A model generated the notes under the pieces. It was not told the DNA's origin, ran no database searches, and saw only the letters and a list, made by a program, of their open reading frames with translations. A stretch of 41,709 bases of DNA from positions 1 to 41,709 of the forward strand of contig NTKX01000005.1 of NCBI GenBank assembly GCA_002457135.1, read 5' to 3'. The first letter of the stretch is position 1; the number at the start of each line of letters is the position of its first letter. The stretch is from SAR116 cluster bacterium MED-G04 (GTDB taxonomy: Bacteria; Pseudomonadota; Alphaproteobacteria; Puniceispirillales; UBA1172). This document shows, one piece after another, positions 1-6,630 of this stretch. The position numbers were made by a program, and so were the translations under genes.

Positions 1-79
1 AGCAACTAATTATGCAATGGACAAAGGGTATATTTATTCACCCGATGACAAACATATTTGTTTGACGAAGAGAGATTAG
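1..79 (+). CDS. Possible 3' end of a gene cut by the window start
   Basis: An open frame enters from base 2 and stops at TAG 77-79, giving 25 residues with a mixed, protein-like composition (it contains YIYSPDD and ends in LTKRD). No family can be named from so short a tail. It may be the end of a gene beginning left of the window, or chance in AT-rich DNA. Confidence 0.2.
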   Translation, partial: ATNYAMDKGYIYSPDDKHICLTKRD

Positions 80-217
80 TCTTGATGTCCTGCTATTTCT
101 GCTATTTCTGAGCAAAAGGTACTTACTTTAGGTTGTTTGTACGGGTAATTCACGACCGCATAAGTTGCTTAGCAACAGAATTTTGAATTTTAGTTTCATT
201 ATTCACGGGAGATAAAA

Positions 218-398
218 ATGAATGCTTTTCTGGCGGAATTATTTGTACTTTAAATGCTGAAGGAATCCCAGACAACAAGGACTTCCTCCCATCGGATATG
301 TCGAACTTAGATCCAAACAGTATGACTATGCTTCACGGTTTTTCAGGGCATATTTAGATGAAGGTGAAAAGCAACCTCTGGATAATGTAAACAGGTGA
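218..398 (+). pseudogene. Decayed small gene, frame broken near its start
   Basis: An ATG at 218 has a good ribosome site (GGGAG at 207-211) but stops after 11 codons. A different frame then reads from 261 to the TGA at 396-398 with protein-like content, including the segments GLPPIGYVELRSKQYDYASR and AYLDEGEKQPLDNVNR, and has no start codon of its own. The simplest reading is one gene broken by a frameshift close to the start. The family is unknown. Its end runs into the ribosome site of the next broken gene, as in a former operon. Confidence 0.3.
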
Positions 399-403
399 AG
401 AGA

Positions 404-809
404 ATGTCTGAATTGACCGAATTTCAACTTCGCCAAAAAGCCAAGATTTATGATGACTTTGAAAAGGAATGTAATCGTATCCTGCATATGACTTTAAACG
501 AGGTGCGGAAGGTATTTGAATTTGATGGGGACATGTTTGAGGAGTTTGACCAAGCATTTGAAGAGAGCGGGTCATCAATGATGTGGTTCCTGATGATGGT
601 GTTGACTGCAACCCCACTAAAGTTAGTTTTTCAGTTGAAAACTGAGCAACAGACAATTTTTTTTTATAAATGATGCGGGTAGTTTTAATGACGTTGATTG
701 CATATTAAAGGTAGTCGGAAATCATAAAACCAATTTAGTTGGCTTTGAGGAAAGGCTTTCAAGTGCAATCAAAACAAATGTTTTTTTCATAGGTAATCAA
801 TCAACATAA
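404..809 (+). pseudogene. Frameshifted hypothetical gene
   Basis: ATG 404 follows a purine-rich GTGAAGAG stretch. The first frame gives an acidic, helical N-terminus starting MSELTEFQLRQKAKIYDDF. Near 575 the protein-like reading moves to the second frame (PDDGVDCNPTKVSFSVEN). Near the run of nine T at 657-665 it moves to the third frame (INDAGSFNDVDCILKVVG and on to FFIGNQST), ending at TAA 807-809. Read without shifts, the first frame ends at 673 in a low-quality tail. I infer a gene of about 135 codons with two frameshifts. The family is not recognised. Confidence 0.42.
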
Positions 810-954
810 AACCGTCCTGTCCCGCTCGAAAGTGGCATAAAACAAGTATATCTCCTTAATAGGGTAAAAATCGTAACGGTTCAAACTAACAATTAAAATA
901 AATCTCAATCTGGCTCAACGCTAGTAGATAGTTCGCAAGGTCTGCTGTACCAAT

Positions 955-973
955 CTGCACTATAAGAGTGCAG
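955..973. repeat. Perfect 7-bp inverted repeat (hairpin or operator)
   Basis: CTGCACT (955-961) and AGTGCAG (967-973) are exact reverse complements around the 5-base centre ATAAG. No T-run follows, so it is not a classic terminator. It lies 141 bases upstream of the winged-helix gene and could be a protein-binding site. Confidence 0.4.
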
Positions 974-1060
974 AATTAAGCAGTATGGTGCCTCTAACAT
1001 CAATGGAACGTAAACGTTTTAGCTTTTTCCTAAACATTTTTAATTTGCAGACGTAATAAA

Positions 1061-1074
1061 TTGGGACATCCCAA
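1061..1074. promoter_or_regulatory. Palindromic operator candidate before the winged-helix gene
   Basis: TTGGGA and TCCCAA are exact reverse complements separated by CA, 40 bases before the ATG at 1115. A compact dyad just upstream of a small DNA-binding protein is the usual layout for an autoregulated repressor. That role is inferred from position only. Confidence 0.35.
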
Positions 1075-1114
1075 GTTGGACCGTCATCACCAAAATGGAA
1101 CAAGAGAATTTTAG

Positions 1115-1399
1115 ATGGATAAACCACTACATAAAATCAGGCTATTGCTGCATGACTTGGAAAAGTCTTACGGCCGTGTTGAACTAACTTCTACTGAGCG
1201 TGATGTGCTTTACGTGATTGAGAACTTGGCTGAGGAAAAGCCGATCATCGCATCACAAGATATATTGGCCCACGATCTGACCAATAAAATCTCACGTCAG
1301 ACAATCTACAGGTCACTCAAAACCCTTCTTAAGAAAAACTTTATTGCTAAAAGCAATATTGCTGATCGTGGCTTTTTCACTATCAACTCTCAAACCTAA
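1115..1399 (+). CDS. Small winged-helix DNA-binding protein upstream of flagellin
   Basis: A 94-residue protein. The middle reads as a winged helix-turn-helix: a first helix around LTSTERDVLYVIENLA (residues 25-40), a recognition region around SRQTIYRSLKTLLKKNFI (about 68-85), then a short wing ending in GFFTINS. The shape resembles MarR-like regulators, but no named family is certain. AAGAGAAT precedes the ATG as a modest ribosome site. The stop is 12 bases before the flagellin start, so the two genes are probably co-transcribed and the protein is a candidate local regulator of the flagellin. The palindrome at 1061-1074 may be its own site. Confidence 0.75.
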   Translation: MDKPLHKIRLLLHDLEKSYGRVELTSTERDVLYVIENLAEEKPIIASQDILAHDLTNKISRQTIYRSLKTLLKKNFIAKSNIADRGFFTINSQT

Positions 1400-1413
1400 G
1401 GGGAGTTAGCTGA

Positions 1414-2601
1414 ATGCTTTCTATTGGAACAAATGCTGGCGCCATAATGGCCCAATCTGCAGCTTATTCTGTCACTCGTGACATGGAGACAGCTATGCAT
1501 CGGTTATCTACGGGTAAGCGGATTAATGCTGCAGCTGATGATGCTGCAGGGGTGGCAATCAGTTCTAGGCTGGACAGCAGTGTCAGAGGCTTAAACCAAA
1601 GCATCCGTAATGCTCTTGATGCACAGGCTCTGGTCGATACTGCAGAAGGAGCAATGCAGGAAATAGAATCCATTCTGCAAAGGATTAGGCAATTATCGAT
1701 ACAAGCTGCTAATGACACCAACTCTGCGGATGATCTGGCTAATTTGAATGCGGAGGCCCAAAGCCTCCTCACTGAAATTGATAGAATATCTTCCTCTACC
1801 ACTTGGGCTGGCCAAAGCCTTTTGGATGGAACCTTCACCAATAAAAGCTTTCAGGTCAGTACGGGCGCTATATCTGATGGTCAACTGGTAACTTCTATTG
1901 CAGGTGCGTCCTCCGACCTTTTAAGTATAAAAAATATTAATCTAACGGAAAGTAATGAGGAAATAATTAACTTTGCGGCTACCGACTCTGTAGGCGTCAC
2001 CGTTAAACTTGAAGCAGGTACCTACAAATTTGTGCCAATTGGGATTGCTGAAGGAGGACAATATGACGTCTATTCAGGTCATCCGAGCGATACAACCTTT
2101 TTCTATGAATATACTGTCACAGCTACAGAGCTAGGTGGGGCTAATCGAATTAATTTCCCCTCCACAAGGTACGCAAACCCAAGAGATGCAATAGATAATG
2201 CCCCAAGTTACGAATTTACATTAACTCAAGCTGGATCAGTTAACGTAAGCCGATATGATAACCCGAATGATTATGGAGACAACTCTGGAGGTTTATCGAT
2301 AAAGTTAGTGAAGCCAACAGGCGCTAAGAACGCGATATCACTAATTGACACCGCCCTTCAAACTCTAAATTCGCAACGAGGTTTACTTGGTGCTATCTCA
2401 AATCGACTAGACCATATTGTAGCCAATAATACTAATGTTGCTAATAATATTGCCAAATCATTAGGTCGCATTCAGGACGCAGACTATGCTGCTGAAAGCA
2501 CAAGCTTAGGGAAGAACCAAATTCTACTGAAAGCTTCAACTGCTATGCTGGCTCAAGCCAATGCTTCTAAGCAGAATATTCTCGAACTTCTGCAGAACTG
2601 A
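1414..2601 (+). CDS. Flagellin (flagellar filament protein)
   Basis: A 395-residue flagellin, the exported subunit of the flagellar filament. The N-terminal D0/D1 region (about residues 1-150) has the family pattern, including HRLSTGKRINAAADDAAG and QSIRNALDAQALVDTAEGAM. The C-terminal D1/D0 region (about 315-395) contains SNRLDHIVANNTNVANNIA and ends with AQANASKQNILELLQN. The middle, about 185-315, is a divergent surface domain rich in Tyr, Asn and Thr that I cannot match. GGGGAG upstream of ATG 1414 supports this start. No chaperone, FlaF, FlbT or other flagellar gene is nearby, so this is an orphan flagellin in the AT-rich region. It may be an alternative or acquired filament subunit. Confidence 0.93.
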   Translation: MLSIGTNAGAIMAQSAAYSVTRDMETAMHRLSTGKRINAAADDAAGVAISSRLDSSVRGLNQSIRNALDAQALVDTAEGAMQEIESILQRIRQLSIQAANDTNSADDLANLNAEAQSLLTEIDRISSSTTWAGQSLLDGTFTNKSFQVSTGAISDGQLVTSIAGASSDLLSIKNINLTESNEEIINFAATDSVGVTVKLEAGTYKFVPIGIAEGGQYDVYSGHPSDTTFFYEYTVTATELGGANRINFPSTRYANPRDAIDNAPSYEFTLTQAGSVNVSRYDNPNDYGDNSGGLSIKLVKPTGAKNAISLIDTALQTLNSQRGLLGAISNRLDHIVANNTNVANNIAKSLGRIQDADYAAESTSLGKNQILLKASTAMLAQANASKQNILELLQN

Positions 2602-2765
2602 ACAACACCTCTTCCTACCCAAAGACTAATCAGGCTACCCCAGCACCAGCCTCCACACCCCGTGGACTGATGAAGTAGCTGAAGAATATTTAAACACTGG
2701 CTGGAATGAAGGAATGTGACGAACATAATAGTAAACACCATCACGATTCATCATGTGTTCGGGGG
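2602..2765. other. Intergenic stretch after flagellin; possible gene debris
   Basis: The whole gap to the next gene is 425 bases (2602-3026), and 2766-2896 is the repeat listed below. On the minus strand, 2754 to 2635 is open for 39 residues beginning MMNRDGVYYYVRHIPSF. The GVYYYVRHIP part recalls the first residues of some phage integrases (the RRGxYYFRRxVP pattern). It is too short and lacks the rest of any integrase, so it could be a remnant or chance. No convincing flagellin terminator was seen before the one at 2853-2883. Confidence 0.2.
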
Positions 2766-2896
2766 CAATTTCATCAAAATTAAATATCACGGAAACGTTT
2801 TTGTAAAACTGCGTCTACATATTCATAGGTGTTGAATGCCCAAAGAAAACTTGCCCATCGCATCTCCCCGCGGTGGGCTTTTTGTTTGTTTAGAGG
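2766..2896 (+). repeat. 131-bp duplicated element, copy 1
   Basis: This stretch recurs at 4083-4213. The left arm of 55 bp differs at one base between copies, and the right arm of 51 bp differs at two. Between the arms lie 25 bp (2821-2845) that are unrelated between the copies but equal in length. The left arm contains the small hairpin GTTTT-TGT-AAAAC (2797-2809) and the right arm contains a terminator. It could encode a short RNA with an exchangeable middle. No strong promoter is visible, so the strand is inferred from the terminator. Confidence 0.75.
2853..2883 (+). terminator. Rho-independent terminator in repeat copy 1
   Basis: GCCCATCGC (2853-2861) pairs with GCGGTGGGC (2870-2878), 9 bp with one T-G wobble. 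The loop is ATCTCCCC and a T5 run follows. It would end transcription from the flagellin gene or from a short RNA starting inside the repeat. Confidence 0.75.
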
Positions 2897-3026
2897 TTGC
2901 AGGCTAACTCATTGGCTGGTTACCCGGTCGTGGGGCATTTTTTGCAAAAAAAACTCATTATTGTAACATATTCGTATAATCAAGCCCTCAAATTATATAC
3001 TCGTAATTCTAGAGAGGAGAACAACA
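2897..3026 (+). promoter_or_regulatory. Leader and possible promoter of the 134-residue gene
   Basis: A consensus TATAAT occurs at 2975-2980, about 47 bases upstream of the ATG at 3027, but no good -35 lies 16-18 bp before it. A strong ribosome site (AGAGAGGAG) sits just before the start. The promoter call is tentative. Confidence 0.3.
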
Positions 3027-3431
3027 ATGCTTGGTGATAAAGTTGGTTCAATGACATTGCAGGAAACAAGTAAGCCAATTGAATCTGGTAAATTTGGTCT
3101 GCCTGCGATGGAAACTCATAATAAGGGGGGTGGAACACTGCTAGGCCACGATGTTCAGGCGCAAGCAGCATTTACAGCTCACATGCGACCAGATGGTTCT
3201 TGGTTGGGACATGCTCACGCTGGTGTTGTGATGTGCGCAGAAGGTATGGCCACATTCAAGTGTGACGGTGTTGGAAACATGACCGAAGAAGGGGGCGTTT
3301 CTTTCAGAGGCGGAGCCATATTCGAAACCACATCTGAAGCGTTTTCTGAACTGAACGGTAAGTATTTTATGTTTACCTACGAAGCCGATACAGACGGCAA
3401 AGCAGTTTGGGAGCTTTACCCCTGCAATTAG
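3027..3431 (+). CDS. Unrecognised 134-residue protein, probably beta-rich
   Basis: I do not recognise the family. There is no signal peptide and no membrane segment. The sequence is rich in Gly and in alternating polar/hydrophobic stretches. Short motifs such as MRPDGSWLGHAHAGV, CDGVGNMTEEGGVSFRG and LNGKYFMFTYEADTDGK look like strands and turns of a small beta-barrel (lipocalin-like or cyclase-like). That is inference from pattern only. It has a very strong ribosome site (AGAGAGGAG) and its own downstream terminator (3470-3507), so it is probably a single, well-translated gene. Two Cys lie mid-protein and one near the C-terminus. Confidence 0.75.
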   Translation: MLGDKVGSMTLQETSKPIESGKFGLPAMETHNKGGGTLLGHDVQAQAAFTAHMRPDGSWLGHAHAGVVMCAEGMATFKCDGVGNMTEEGGVSFRGGAIFETTSEAFSELNGKYFMFTYEADTDGKAVWELYPCN

Positions 3432-3469
3432 AGACTGAAGGCTCACCCTTTCAACCGGTGTTACATGCT

Positions 3470-3507
3470 AACCCTCACCGAACTTTTCCCGGTGGGGGTT
3501 GGTTTTT
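3470..3507 (+). terminator. Rho-independent terminator, first of two near-identical copies
   Basis: AACCCTCACCG (3470-3480) pairs with CGGTGGGGGTT (3490-3500), 11 bp with one wobble pair. GG and T5 follow. It ends the 134-residue gene. The same hairpin and loop recur at 4037-4074. Confidence 0.85.
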
Positions 3508-3589
3508 AAGTGGGCAATTCACAAAAAGGTAATATTTTTAAAATAAACGATTTTAATAGGTTTATTTATTGTGTTTGTTAGAGACCGAT

Positions 3590-3880
3590 ATGTCTGTCTA
3601 TATGCTTGTTGACGTCGATGTACACAACAAAGAAGAATATAAAAAGTACATGGAAATTGTTAAACCTATGATCGAAGACTATGATGGCGTATTTCTGATT
3701 CGTGATGGAGAGATTGATGCTCTTGAAACAAGTTTATGGAGACCAACTAGAATTGTATTAGTTAGGTTTCCTAACAAAGAATTAGCATCGAATTGGTATA
3801 ATAGTGAAGAATATAGACCCTATAAGAAATTAAGATTGGAAAAAGCTACATCTAACATTTTATTTATTGAAGGGTTATAA
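3590..3880 (+). CDS. DUF1330 family protein
   Basis: A 96-residue protein with the DUF1330 pattern: the opening strand MSVYMLVDVDVHNKEEYKKY, an FLIRDGE segment in the middle, WRPTRIVLVRFPNKELASNWY, and a YRPYKKLR helix near the end. The family adopts a dimeric ferredoxin-like alpha/beta-barrel fold; its biochemical role is not established. An in-frame TTG at 3569 would add seven residues, but ATG 3590 gives the family's normal N-terminus. The gene is AT-rich like the rest of the accessory region and stands alone between two terminator-bearing repeats. Confidence 0.85.
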   Translation: MSVYMLVDVDVHNKEEYKKYMEIVKPMIEDYDGVFLIRDGEIDALETSLWRPTRIVLVRFPNKELASNWYNSEEYRPYKKLRLEKATSNILFIEGL

Positions 3881-4036
3881 TTTAAAGACTTAAAAACACA
3901 AAAATATCAGATATTTTTAATATTAAGCACTTTTAAATAAAACCTTGAATGCCCACACATAACTGGCTCATAGCACCCTTTTATAATTTTTTTAATATTT
4001 GAGAATTAGATGCACTATACTAGAGCTATAATAACT
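3881..4036. other. AT-rich gap with a palindrome and -10-like boxes
   Basis: No gene is seen here; the whole gap to the next gene is 326 bases (3881-4206) including the elements listed below. AAAATATC/GATATTTT (3901-3917) is a perfect 8-bp dyad 20 bases after the DUF1330 stop and could act as a weak terminator. TATACT (4016-4021) and TATAAT (4027-4032) resemble -10 boxes but lack well-placed -35 partners. TTGAATGCCCA at 3945-3955 also occurs in the variable centre of repeat copy 1 (2832-2842). Confidence 0.4.
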
Positions 4037-4074
4037 AACCCTCACCGAACTTTTCCCGGTGGGGGTTGGTTTTT
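4037..4074 (+). terminator. Rho-independent terminator, second copy
   Basis: The hairpin is base-for-base the same as at 3470-3507: AACCCTCACCG (4037-4047), a nine-base loop, CGGTGGGGGTT (4057-4067), then GG and T5. It lies nine bases before the second 131-bp repeat, so the two repeat types are fused here. Confidence 0.8.
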
Positions 4075-4082
4075 ATGTGGGT

Positions 4083-4213
4083 CAATTTCATAAAAATTAA
4101 ATATCACGGAAACGTTTTTGTAAAACTGCGTCTACATCATAATTATCGTTCTGACCTTGAAAAAAACTTGTCCATCGCATCTCCCCGCGGTGGGCTTTTT
4201 GTTTGATTAGAGG
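4083..4213 (+). repeat. 131-bp duplicated element, copy 2
   Basis: The left arm 4083-4137 matches 2766-2820 at 54 of 55 positions. The right arm 4163-4213 matches 2846-2896 at 49 of 51. The 25-bp centre (4138-4162) shows no more than chance similarity to the other centre. The last seven bases overlap the 3' end of the exported-protein gene on the opposite strand. Confidence 0.75.
4170..4200 (+). terminator. Rho-independent terminator in repeat copy 2
   Basis: GTCCATCGC (4170-4178) pairs with GCGGTGGGC (4187-4195) using two wobble pairs. The loop ATCTCCCC is identical to copy 1, and T5 follows. Confidence 0.7.
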
Positions 4214-4449
4214 CGCCCTTTTCTACACCAAAATTCTCCAGTGCCAACCGCACAGAAAAAGATTCTTGCGTCATATCTGACTATGAAACTAGTTTGGTAA
4301 GCACTTTTATGTGGTTCAGAGAGAATTTCGCCATTTGCCATTATCTCGTTTGCATTTTTTCCCACAATAATCATAACTTTGTCATGGCCATTACCCCAAC
4401 TAGGGCTGGCGAACAGTATAACGGCGAGAGTAGTTAGAATTAGACGCAT
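4207..4449 (-). CDS. Small exported protein of unknown function
   Basis: An 80-residue protein. Residues 1-19 form a clear signal peptide: MR, then the hydrophobic LILTTLAVILFA, then SPSWG. The mature part is about 60 residues with two Cys (in FFCAVG and FWCRKG) that could form one disulfide in the periplasm. No family is recognised. The start lies four bases after the stop of the 212-residue gene on the same strand, and the integrase is upstream of that, so it is probably the last gene of the integrase operon. Confidence 0.6.
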   Translation of the reverse strand: MRLILTTLAVILFASPSWGNGHDKVMIIVGKNANEIMANGEILSEPHKSAYQTSFIVRYDARIFFCAVGTGEFWCRKGRL

Positions 4450-4453
4450 TATG

Positions 4454-5092
4454 TTACTCCTTCCGAACAGTAAGTTTGTTGAACCAATCTAGACCACCGA
4501 CTTCAATCCAGCCCTTATATGCGTGACTTGGGTCGTGTTCATCTTCAAAGACTATGTCGAAAAACTCTTCCAGAAACCTTTGAAACTCACCTGAGAGCGT
4601 TTTGTTCTCCGGCTTTCTCTTAGTTGCTTTTAAATATGCATATGCGCCAGCGTGGACAGCTTGTAGTGCCTCAGGGTTCTTCTGGGTTTTGATCTTCTCA
4701 TTAAGCAGCTTTTCCGGGTCATTAACTATTTCTTCCAGCGCTTCTAGATCCCCCATCAAATTTATGAAGCGGGGCATAATATTTGTCCCCGCCTCATTGG
4801 CAACTCTTCCACCGCGCTTCTTATCAAGTTCTACCATTATATCATTGCGAACTGATGGTAGAGAGCTTAAGGCACGCCTAGCCTTATAGATAAGGGTGTG
4901 GACAATTTTAATGTCATTAGCATCGTTTGAACGTGTTAAGTGTCTAGGGGGCCAAAATTTTCCATCCAGCTTTTCATTAATAAGTTTTATGTAGTCCGCA
5001 CTCACAGGGTTTTTGCTAGACGAATAGCGTATCATCAGGTCTTCTATTGATTTCGTACGCTTTTCAATATCCTGTAATTTCCAATTAGCCAT
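4454..5092 (-). CDS. Unknown 212-residue protein coupled to the integrase
   Basis: The family is not recognised. The protein is mostly helical and charged, without signal peptide or membrane segments. Visible segments include FWPPRHLTRSNDANDIKIVH (about residues 47-66) and a C-terminal part with GEFQRFLEEFFDIVFEDEH and WIEVGGLDWFNKL. The start codon overlaps the end of the integrase gene by eight bases, which implies co-transcription and probably translational coupling. An accessory role for the mobile element (directionality, regulation or a passenger function) is inference from context only. Confidence 0.7.
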   Translation of the reverse strand: MANWKLQDIEKRTKSIEDLMIRYSSSKNPVSADYIKLINEKLDGKFWPPRHLTRSNDANDIKIVHTLIYKARRALSSLPSVRNDIMVELDKKRGGRVANEAGTNIMPRFINLMGDLEALEEIVNDPEKLLNEKIKTQKNPEALQAVHAGAYAYLKATKRKPENKTLSGEFQRFLEEFFDIVFEDEHDPSHAYKGWIEVGGLDWFNKLTVRKE

Positions 5093-6383
5093 TGCTTTTC
5101 ACACCTCTGAGGAAGTTATCCCATTTGGTCATCATTTCTTTGCGATGGTCGGATATAGAAGTGTCATGATTGTATCGAGCGCCGACACCCCGTTTTGATC
5201 TTGCGCTTTGTGCCTCTGACAGCTCATCGGGATAGTCGTGAGCAGATGCCCAAGTTTTAAACGTATGTCTAATTCCGTGGGCAACAGGCGTGTTATCAGA
5301 GTCTAGTCCACGCCAGTCATCAAGATGGCTCTTACCAATTACACGCTTTAGCGTTCTGGCAGGACTGTTGTGTTCAACGTGACCAGCTTTTGTCTCACTT
5401 GCAAATATAAACTTGCTACCGTCAGCTAATTCTTGTCTTTTGTTTAAAATGTCTTGAACTATTGGCGATATCCAGCATTCATACTTCTGGCGCTCATCTG
5501 GCCTTCCTTTCATTTTTCTGGCTGGTATAACCCACCTCTCATTTTCTAGGTCAAACTCAGACCACTCAGCTTCGCATGCATTCTCTGGTCGCACGGCTGT
5601 AGCAAGGATCAGCAAAAGGCATTGGTGGTGTATGTTATTCGAGTTGGCAAGTTTAGAATAAAGCTCTGGAGCGCGATCATAATCAAAGTATCCTCGTGGT
5701 TGCTCAAGATGCTTAGTATTCAATCCCTCAGCATCGAGACTTATCTCGGCGGGGTTATCATTTCGGATAGAATAACGTTCGCTTCGAGCAAGCGAAAATA
5801 TCTGCTTGGTGTTACGAAGCACCTTTTTCATTGTGGGATGTTTGTTGTACCACTTGTCATCCCGCTTTAGCATTTCAATAACCTCAGTCGTTGTTATCTC
5901 TTCAACAGGTCTTCTGCCAAGGACTGGAAAAGCGTGATTTACTAAGTAGGACCAGTTTTGCTTTGCTACCTTTTCCTGTGACCACTCTTTATTCTTAGTT
6001 TTGTTTGCGTGCCACACTTCGGCAAATTCTTGAAAGGTTTGGCCAGATTTTGTGGCATTTGGGTTTGAGATGTTTTGTTTGGTTGTGGCAGGACTTTTAT
6101 TGCCCTCAATTGCACTCTTAATCCTGTCTATAGAAAAACCCTGTTTGAAGTAGTCTTTGGCTTCTTGGTTGCGCAGTCTTGCTTGTGAAAGGGTAATCTC
6201 TGGGTAGAGACCAAGTGTTATTATCGAAACTTTTCCACTACTGTCTTTAAGTCTACTTCTAAAAGTTTTCTTTTTGGTAGAGGTCACTCGGAGTTGCAAA
6301 TTGTTTCCGCAGGAATAGTCCTTGTATGAACTGCCACCACCACACTTGGCTGCACGCACTTGATTGTCTGTTTCGAGCCGCAT
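5085..6383 (-). CDS. Tyrosine-recombinase integrase
   Basis: A 432-residue phage/island integrase. Residues about 10-80 match the DUF4102 arm-binding domain (NNLQLRVTSTKKKTFRSRL, then TLGLYPEITLSQAR). A core-binding domain spans about 115-200 and the catalytic domain about 230-425. I see catalytic Arg265 (ATAVRPENA), His369 and Arg372 (HGIRHTF) and the nucleophile Tyr404 (GARYNHD). The His usually found about ten residues before the Tyr is replaced by a Ser/Ala stretch (SEAQSARSK), which may lower activity or mark a divergent subgroup. There is no clear ribosome site. An att-like sequence and a repeat-covered promoter lie just upstream. The gene points away from the att site at 6570. Confidence 0.9.
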   Translation of the reverse strand: MRLETDNQVRAAKCGGGSSYKDYSCGNNLQLRVTSTKKKTFRSRLKDSSGKVSIITLGLYPEITLSQARLRNQEAKDYFKQGFSIDRIKSAIEGNKSPATTKQNISNPNATKSGQTFQEFAEVWHANKTKNKEWSQEKVAKQNWSYLVNHAFPVLGRRPVEEITTTEVIEMLKRDDKWYNKHPTMKKVLRNTKQIFSLARSERYSIRNDNPAEISLDAEGLNTKHLEQPRGYFDYDRAPELYSKLANSNNIHHQCLLLILATAVRPENACEAEWSEFDLENERWVIPARKMKGRPDERQKYECWISPIVQDILNKRQELADGSKFIFASETKAGHVEHNSPARTLKRVIGKSHLDDWRGLDSDNTPVAHGIRHTFKTWASAHDYPDELSEAQSARSKRGVGARYNHDTSISDHRKEMMTKWDNFLRGVKSNG

Positions 6384-6386
6384 AAT

Positions 6387-6408
6387 GTTCGAATCCCTGT
6401 TTGGATGC
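6387..6408. repeat. Degenerate second copy of the att core, abutting the integrase start
   Basis: GTTCGAATCCC (6387-6397), five differing bases, then GGATGC (6403-6408). The same two blocks with the same 5-base spacing occur at 6570-6591, 183 bp away. The block ends three bases from the integrase ATG. It may be an old or secondary attachment site. Confidence 0.5.
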
Positions 6409-6410
6409 TG

Positions 6411-6436
6411 GGTACCTAAGGGTACCTAAAGGTACC
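6411..6436. promoter_or_regulatory. Three GGTACC repeats at exact 10-bp spacing
   Basis: GGTACC occurs at 6411, 6421 and 6431, each part of a GGTACCTAAG-like unit; the third unit continues CCTTT. A 10-bp period puts every palindrome on one face of the helix. They cover the -10 and early transcribed region of the predicted integrase promoter, as an operator would. Confidence 0.55.
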
Positions 6437-6457
6437 CTTTTCCGAGTAGCGGGTCAA
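6429..6457 (-). promoter_or_regulatory. Predicted integrase promoter
   Basis: Reading leftward, TTGACC (6457-6452) is separated by exactly 17 bases from TACCTT (6434-6429). The -10 box overlaps the rightmost GGTACC unit. It is placed to drive the integrase gene starting at 6383. Confidence 0.45.
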
Positions 6458-6569
6458 TTACAGACTGTTTCAGTTGGTTACTGGTAGTGGTAAGAATTCA
6501 GGTTAAAATACTGTTATTATTACTAAATAAAAGCTTAATATCTTATTTATCAGCTAGTTAAGAAACCTA

Positions 6570-6593
6570 GTTCGAATCCCCTACGGGATGCCA
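6570..6593 (+). other. tRNA-like 3' end; probable attachment site at the island edge
   Basis: The sequence reads as the final part of a tRNA gene: G53, the T-loop TTCGAAT, T-stem strand CCCCT, acceptor strand ACGGGAT, discriminator G and CCA. The bases before it (AAACCTA) cannot form the matching 5' T-stem, so this is only a 3' fragment. Such fragments are left when an element integrates into a tRNA 3' end. The parent tRNA should then lie at the other end of the element, left of the window. The tRNA identity is not clear. Confidence 0.6.
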
Positions 6594-6630
6594 TTTACTG
6601 ATACTGGCCACTATCAAAATGGCCCTGAAT

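Follow-up and report, generated by a model that had tools for sequence, protein, structure and literature searches.

The 41 709-nucleotide window analysed here, a whole contig of the 1.56-Mb draft genome (77% complete) of SAR116 cluster bacterium MED-G04, carries two units, E1 and E2, that are, on balance, probably duplicated sibling small-RNA genes on a genomic island integrated at tRNA-Glu; their transcription, promoter, use of Hfq, pairing and targets are predicted from the DNA alone. The units are direct copies 1.3 kb apart and bracket two genes, for a 134-aa protein and a DUF1330 protein. Their parts are as follows:

2762–2896, + strand: unit E1, predicted small-RNA gene copy 1; 87% overall identity to E2; 3' intrinsic terminator
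2766–2820, + strand: E1 left arm, putative promoter and/or RNA 5' part; 54/55 identical to 4083–4137
2821–2845, + strand: E1 centre, unrelated to the E2 centre; 9/25 identical, chance level
2853–2878, + strand: E1 terminator hairpin GCCCATCGC-ATCTCCCC-GCGGTGGGC, then TTTTTGTTTG; loop anti-Shine–Dalgarno-like
4079–4213, + strand: unit E2, predicted small-RNA gene copy 2; 3' intrinsic terminator
4083–4137, + strand: E2 left arm; 54/55 identical to 2766–2820
4138–4162, + strand: E2 centre; 9/25 identical to the E1 centre
4170–4195, + strand: E2 terminator hairpin; a C-to-T change preserves a G–U pair

E1 and E2 differ at 20 of 135 positions, and 16 of these differences lie within the central 25 bp, a clustering seen in none of 100 000 random placements. 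The first-pass annotation had described near-identical arms around a different centre of equal length (25 bp), with changes confined to one stretch, unlike evenly spread decay; its coordinates and counts (54/55, 49/51 and 9/25) are correct, and the clustering bears it out. The sole mismatch between the left arms is at 2775, and those between the right arms (2846–2896 versus 4163–4213, 49 of 51 identical) are at 2854 and 2889. Gapped alignment of the two centres is no better than that of shuffles (p = 0.54 direct, p = 0.28 for the reverse complement). The homology begins 4 bp to the left of the arms as first noted, at 2762/4079, and the similarity stops just beyond the terminator, which gives the duplicated unit gene-like limits. 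The last 7 bp of E2 overlap the stop-codon end of a convergent 80-aa ORF.

As expected of small regulatory RNA genes, both units have an intrinsic terminator at the 3' end. The right arm had been taken for a terminator, and it is indeed a strong one: a 9-bp stem plus a U-tract is present in both copies, the single stem change (C to T) keeps a G–U pair, and the loop, AUCUCCCC, carries the anti-Shine–Dalgarno motif CUCCCC. The small left-arm hairpin GTTTT-TGT-AAAAC, also described earlier, is present as sequence, but it amounts to only −0.4 kcal/mol and is absent from the predicted fold of both copies. Folding of the whole units is not better than that of shuffles (z = −1.5 and −1.25), no sigma-70 promoter match was found on the + strand of the left arm, and no open frame on the + strand is common to E1 and E2. 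An EcfG stress promoter (GGAAA-N16-CGTC) was considered for the left arm and rejected: the window contains this motif at chance frequency, and 41 relatives lack NepR, which was detected in a Caulobacter control.

The twin units are surrounded by the following features:

1414–2601, + strand: flagellin gene upstream of E1 (PF00669, PF00700); its Shine–Dalgarno sequence GGGGAG complements the CUCCCC loop
3027–3431, + strand: 134-aa conserved protein between E1 and E2, no Pfam match; relatives in two genomes
3468–3508, + strand: first copy of terminator T, downstream of the 134-aa gene; a stretch resembling the E start follows
3569–3880, + strand: DUF1330 gene (PF07045); likely ATG at 3590
3945–3975, + strand: probable degenerate partial third copy, E1-like (half of the centre plus the right-arm start); 81% identity to E1 over 31 bp
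4035–4075, + strand: second copy of terminator T, separating the DUF1330 gene from E2
4207–4449, − strand: 80-aa ORF convergent with E2; its start resembles a signal peptide
5085–6383, − strand: P4-type tyrosine integrase of the island (PF00589, PF13356, PF22022)
6571–6593, + strand: copy of the tRNA-Glu 3' end at the attachment site; the island ends here on the right

Terminator T is a 41-bp repeat, present in two copies, the second of which isolates E2 from upstream transcription. Because E2 lies between this copy and a convergent gene, the E2 terminator ends neither an upstream mRNA nor the mRNA of that gene. It has a role only for a transcript that begins within E2 or immediately upstream of it, and on this we chiefly base the case for a small RNA.

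Transcription of each unit would run rightwards, beginning within or close to the left arm and stopping at the right-arm terminator, and the RNA would be about 65 to 110 nt long. The CUCCCC terminator loop may then pair with the Shine–Dalgarno sequences of target mRNAs, the neighbouring flagellin mRNA being one candidate, and the divergent centre would be either a spacer that stays single-stranded or a second, sibling-specific pairing region. Among the 35 gene starts in the window, only that of flagellin has GGGGAG, the full complement of CUCCCC, at the ribosome site; this partnership is suggestive only, since any strong Shine–Dalgarno sequence comes close. An RNA duplex scan of the centres against the same 35 gene starts showed no standout beyond energies driven by G + C content.

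No Rfam family matches E1 or E2 above its gathering threshold. The matches below it are mostly to small RNAs, namely CyaR (26.7 and 21.6 bits, gathering score 47), ar14 (16.9 of 58.8) and mmgR (15.8 of 41), and the ar14 and CyaR alignments cover the E hairpin and its CUCCC loop. The alphaproteobacterial ar14 and mmgR (Rfam suhB), as well as CyaR, share with E a C-rich anti-Shine–Dalgarno stretch, located in the terminator loop in ar14, CyaR and E; the scores are far below gathering, and by this measure E belongs to none of these families. A short RNA, as first proposed, is the best reading of the units, in view of the C-rich-loop terminator, the autonomous position, the weak Rfam matches and comparable units on related islands (see below); the replaceable segment that formed part of the same proposal is unsupported.

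The G + C content is 41% at positions 1–6600 and 58% in the rest of the window. The integrase is 49% identical to that of a tRNA-Glu island in the complete genome G022, from the same order, and adjoins the 23 bp at 6571–6593 (TTCGAATCCCCTACGGGATGCCA). In G022, these 23 bases occur twice, at the end of the intact tRNA-Glu gene (L051, 7571–7646) and beyond the integrase. An integrase beside a direct repeat of a tRNA 3' end is the mark of a tRNA-integrated island, and since the arrangement is as in G022, we place E1 and E2 on a tRNA-Glu island whose other end lies off the contig. A third integrase of the P4/tRNA-Glu-island kind is found in the genome G043, with a tRNA-Glu gene about 7 kb away.

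The complete flagellin gene on the AT-rich tRNA-Glu island, preceded by a small winged-helix-like ORF (1115–1399), is possibly horizontally carried. The 134-aa protein has relatives of 92% and 71% identity in two genomes from another family of the order, which points to recent horizontal transfer. Close to the 92%-identical relative (L036), too, there is a remnant that resembles a tRNA 3' end. A GG-N10-GC motif at 2931–2947 (TGGGGCATTTTTTGC), upstream of the 134-aa gene, resembles a sigma-54 −24/−12 promoter. A DUF1330-like protein, identified by eye, is encoded near the integrase of the G022 island as well.

The genome itself contains no full copies beyond E1 and E2, but one probable remnant. 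Sibling small RNAs are expected in at least two closely related copies per genome; here there are two full copies and the remnant. Blast over 136 genomes of the order (135 besides its own) yielded nothing credible and a profile search of 385 genomes of the class no credible match, so that no further full copy with these arms was found, in collections that may omit the genome itself and very close genomes. E is absent from the islands adjoining relatives of the 134-aa gene or of the integrase, and from the viral contigs and the phage and plasmid records searched. Exact motifs gave no match in IMG/VR and only two 19-mer matches in GTDB contigs, about the number expected by chance; these, in a Formosa MAG and a Thaumarchaeota MAG, were discarded, as were a match at G003 (L019) and a model match at G235 (L042), both taken as chance.

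The remnant at 3945–3975 includes part of the E1 centre (TTGAATGCCCA), and a score as high is reached by 2 of 300 dinucleotide shuffles, so that a degenerate third copy of E is probable rather than certain. The left arm has no significant similarity to the adjacent 3885–3942 (p = 0.57), so the third copy would consist of the right half only. In addition, 73 bp at 3511–3583, after terminator T copy 1, resemble both ends of E (p = 0.02 and 0.04) without the middle, and possibly represent a fourth, internally deleted copy.

Units similar in design, with a C-rich-loop hairpin and a terminator, are present on the G022 island, where two near-identical copies of about 125 nt lie on the minus strand (L051, 15830–15999 and 16774–16943). 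Island and integrase type are the same as for E. The G022 units have no sequence homology to E, are placed immediately upstream of genes and have conserved middles. E as a member of a small-RNA-like family of G022 and G043 was rejected, as a model (R2) built from the units of these genomes misses E1 and E2; the units of G022 and G043 are analogues of E, not homologues.

In the same region of G022, a terminator hairpin (GGCCAGCCTTTGCGCTGGCC; L051, 13458–17728, minus strand) recurs six times with variation, between small genes. Four of these copies are additional to those in the duplicated units, and most of the four have another 5' sequence. An identical TTTTTTTGTGGCA tail occurs in four copies, three of them just upstream of gene starts. 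These recurring hairpins are possibly an array of leaders or small RNAs. Matches to mmgR, below the Rfam gathering score, were obtained in G022 (32.2 bits) and G043 (28.7 bits). The mmgR-like candidates at L056, 15236–15306 and L051, 17684–17753 (both minus strand) are alike and lie on two tRNA-Glu islands.

The contrast between arms and centre may have arisen by an old duplication in which only the functional ends were kept, or by recombination between the copies that kept the arms alike; the near-perfect arms favour recombination. Neither route requires a dedicated cassette mechanism. With two copies, centres of equal length are weak evidence; we put the probability of this by chance at roughly one in ten to twenty. 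Terminator T was duplicated separately, as would suit an island on which patches of this sort recombine.

That duplication is also compatible with E units that are repeated intergenic terminator segments, copied as homology patches along with small cargo genes, the middle having drifted or been replaced without any functional RNA. The degenerate third copy and the possible E-like end at 3511–3583 point in the same direction, as do the stop codon of the neighbouring gene within E2 and the sixfold occurrence of one terminator sequence between small genes of G022. However, the left arm is unneeded for termination and is conserved as much as the terminator, and E2, directly after another terminator, would be redundant in this role. 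We consider this explanation unlikely, though it deserves serious attention.

The exact length of the centre and its sharp borders in the two copies are what would be expected of a scaffold with fixed arms in which a 25-bp recognition segment is swapped, by recombination or otherwise, to change the target. Such a system should show numerous copies in which the arms are constant and the centres hypervariable but always equally long, whereas only two full copies emerged from all searches and the partial third copy retains the E1 centre. The centres have no match in the genome itself or in IMG/VR. The centre is flanked by neither a recombinase motif nor an inverted repeat, and cassette exchange at this position, the alternative origin raised in the first-pass annotation, likewise finds no recombination motif in its support. 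Exchange of this kind is very improbable.

A coding frame would also account for the equal length of the centres: on the minus strand, both are spanned by one open frame, whose start and stop they share and which would encode short peptides with a variable middle (MRWASFLWAFNTYEYVDAVLQKRFRDI and MRWTSFFQGQNDNYDVDAVLQKRFRDI). Yet no Pfam, PHROG or tblastn relative was found, GGGGAG abuts the ATG and is too close to serve as a ribosome site, and the frame passes through the terminator stem; a frame open in both centres is expected by chance in about one third of cases, by our estimate. We regard the peptides as very improbable.

Scarcely credible, finally, is a DNA-level att or attC-like recombination site: two direct copies do bracket a 1.3-kb cargo (the 134-aa and DUF1330 genes) on an island with a tyrosine integrase, but this integrase is of the P4 type, not an integron integrase, and adjoins the tRNA-Glu site, the island's own att, two islands with related integrases have no E, and E, which starts with GGGNCAATTTC and ends with TTAGAGG, has neither terminal inverted repeats nor, by reading, the RYYYAAC ... 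GTTRRRY pair of integron attC sites.

Duplicated small-RNA genes have a precedent in Escherichia coli, where the tandem small RNAs OmrA and OmrB are almost identical at their 5' and 3' ends but have different middles, of 32 and 26 nt (PMC12692685, PMC4211561). This is the closest known pattern to that of E1 and E2, with near-identical ends and different middles, and the two units most likely repeat this evolutionary pattern of sibling small RNAs. No sequence relation was found between the two pairs. Unlike OmrA and OmrB, the E copies lie on a mobile island and are separated by two protein genes, at a distance of 1.3 kb; the conserved 5' end of OmrA/OmrB is the seed and their promoters differ, whereas the conserved left arm of E may include the promoter.

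There is little likelihood of a broader scheme in which the tRNA-Glu islands of the order would carry small-RNA families with a fixed promoter/terminator frame and a middle that is replaced so that every copy targets another mRNA. Should E1 and E2 be expressed, a mobile island in a lineage that is largely uncultured would supply two regulatory RNAs of its own, with the adjacent flagellin gene as a possible target, and the small-RNA-like units of related islands would make island-borne small RNAs a testable theme.
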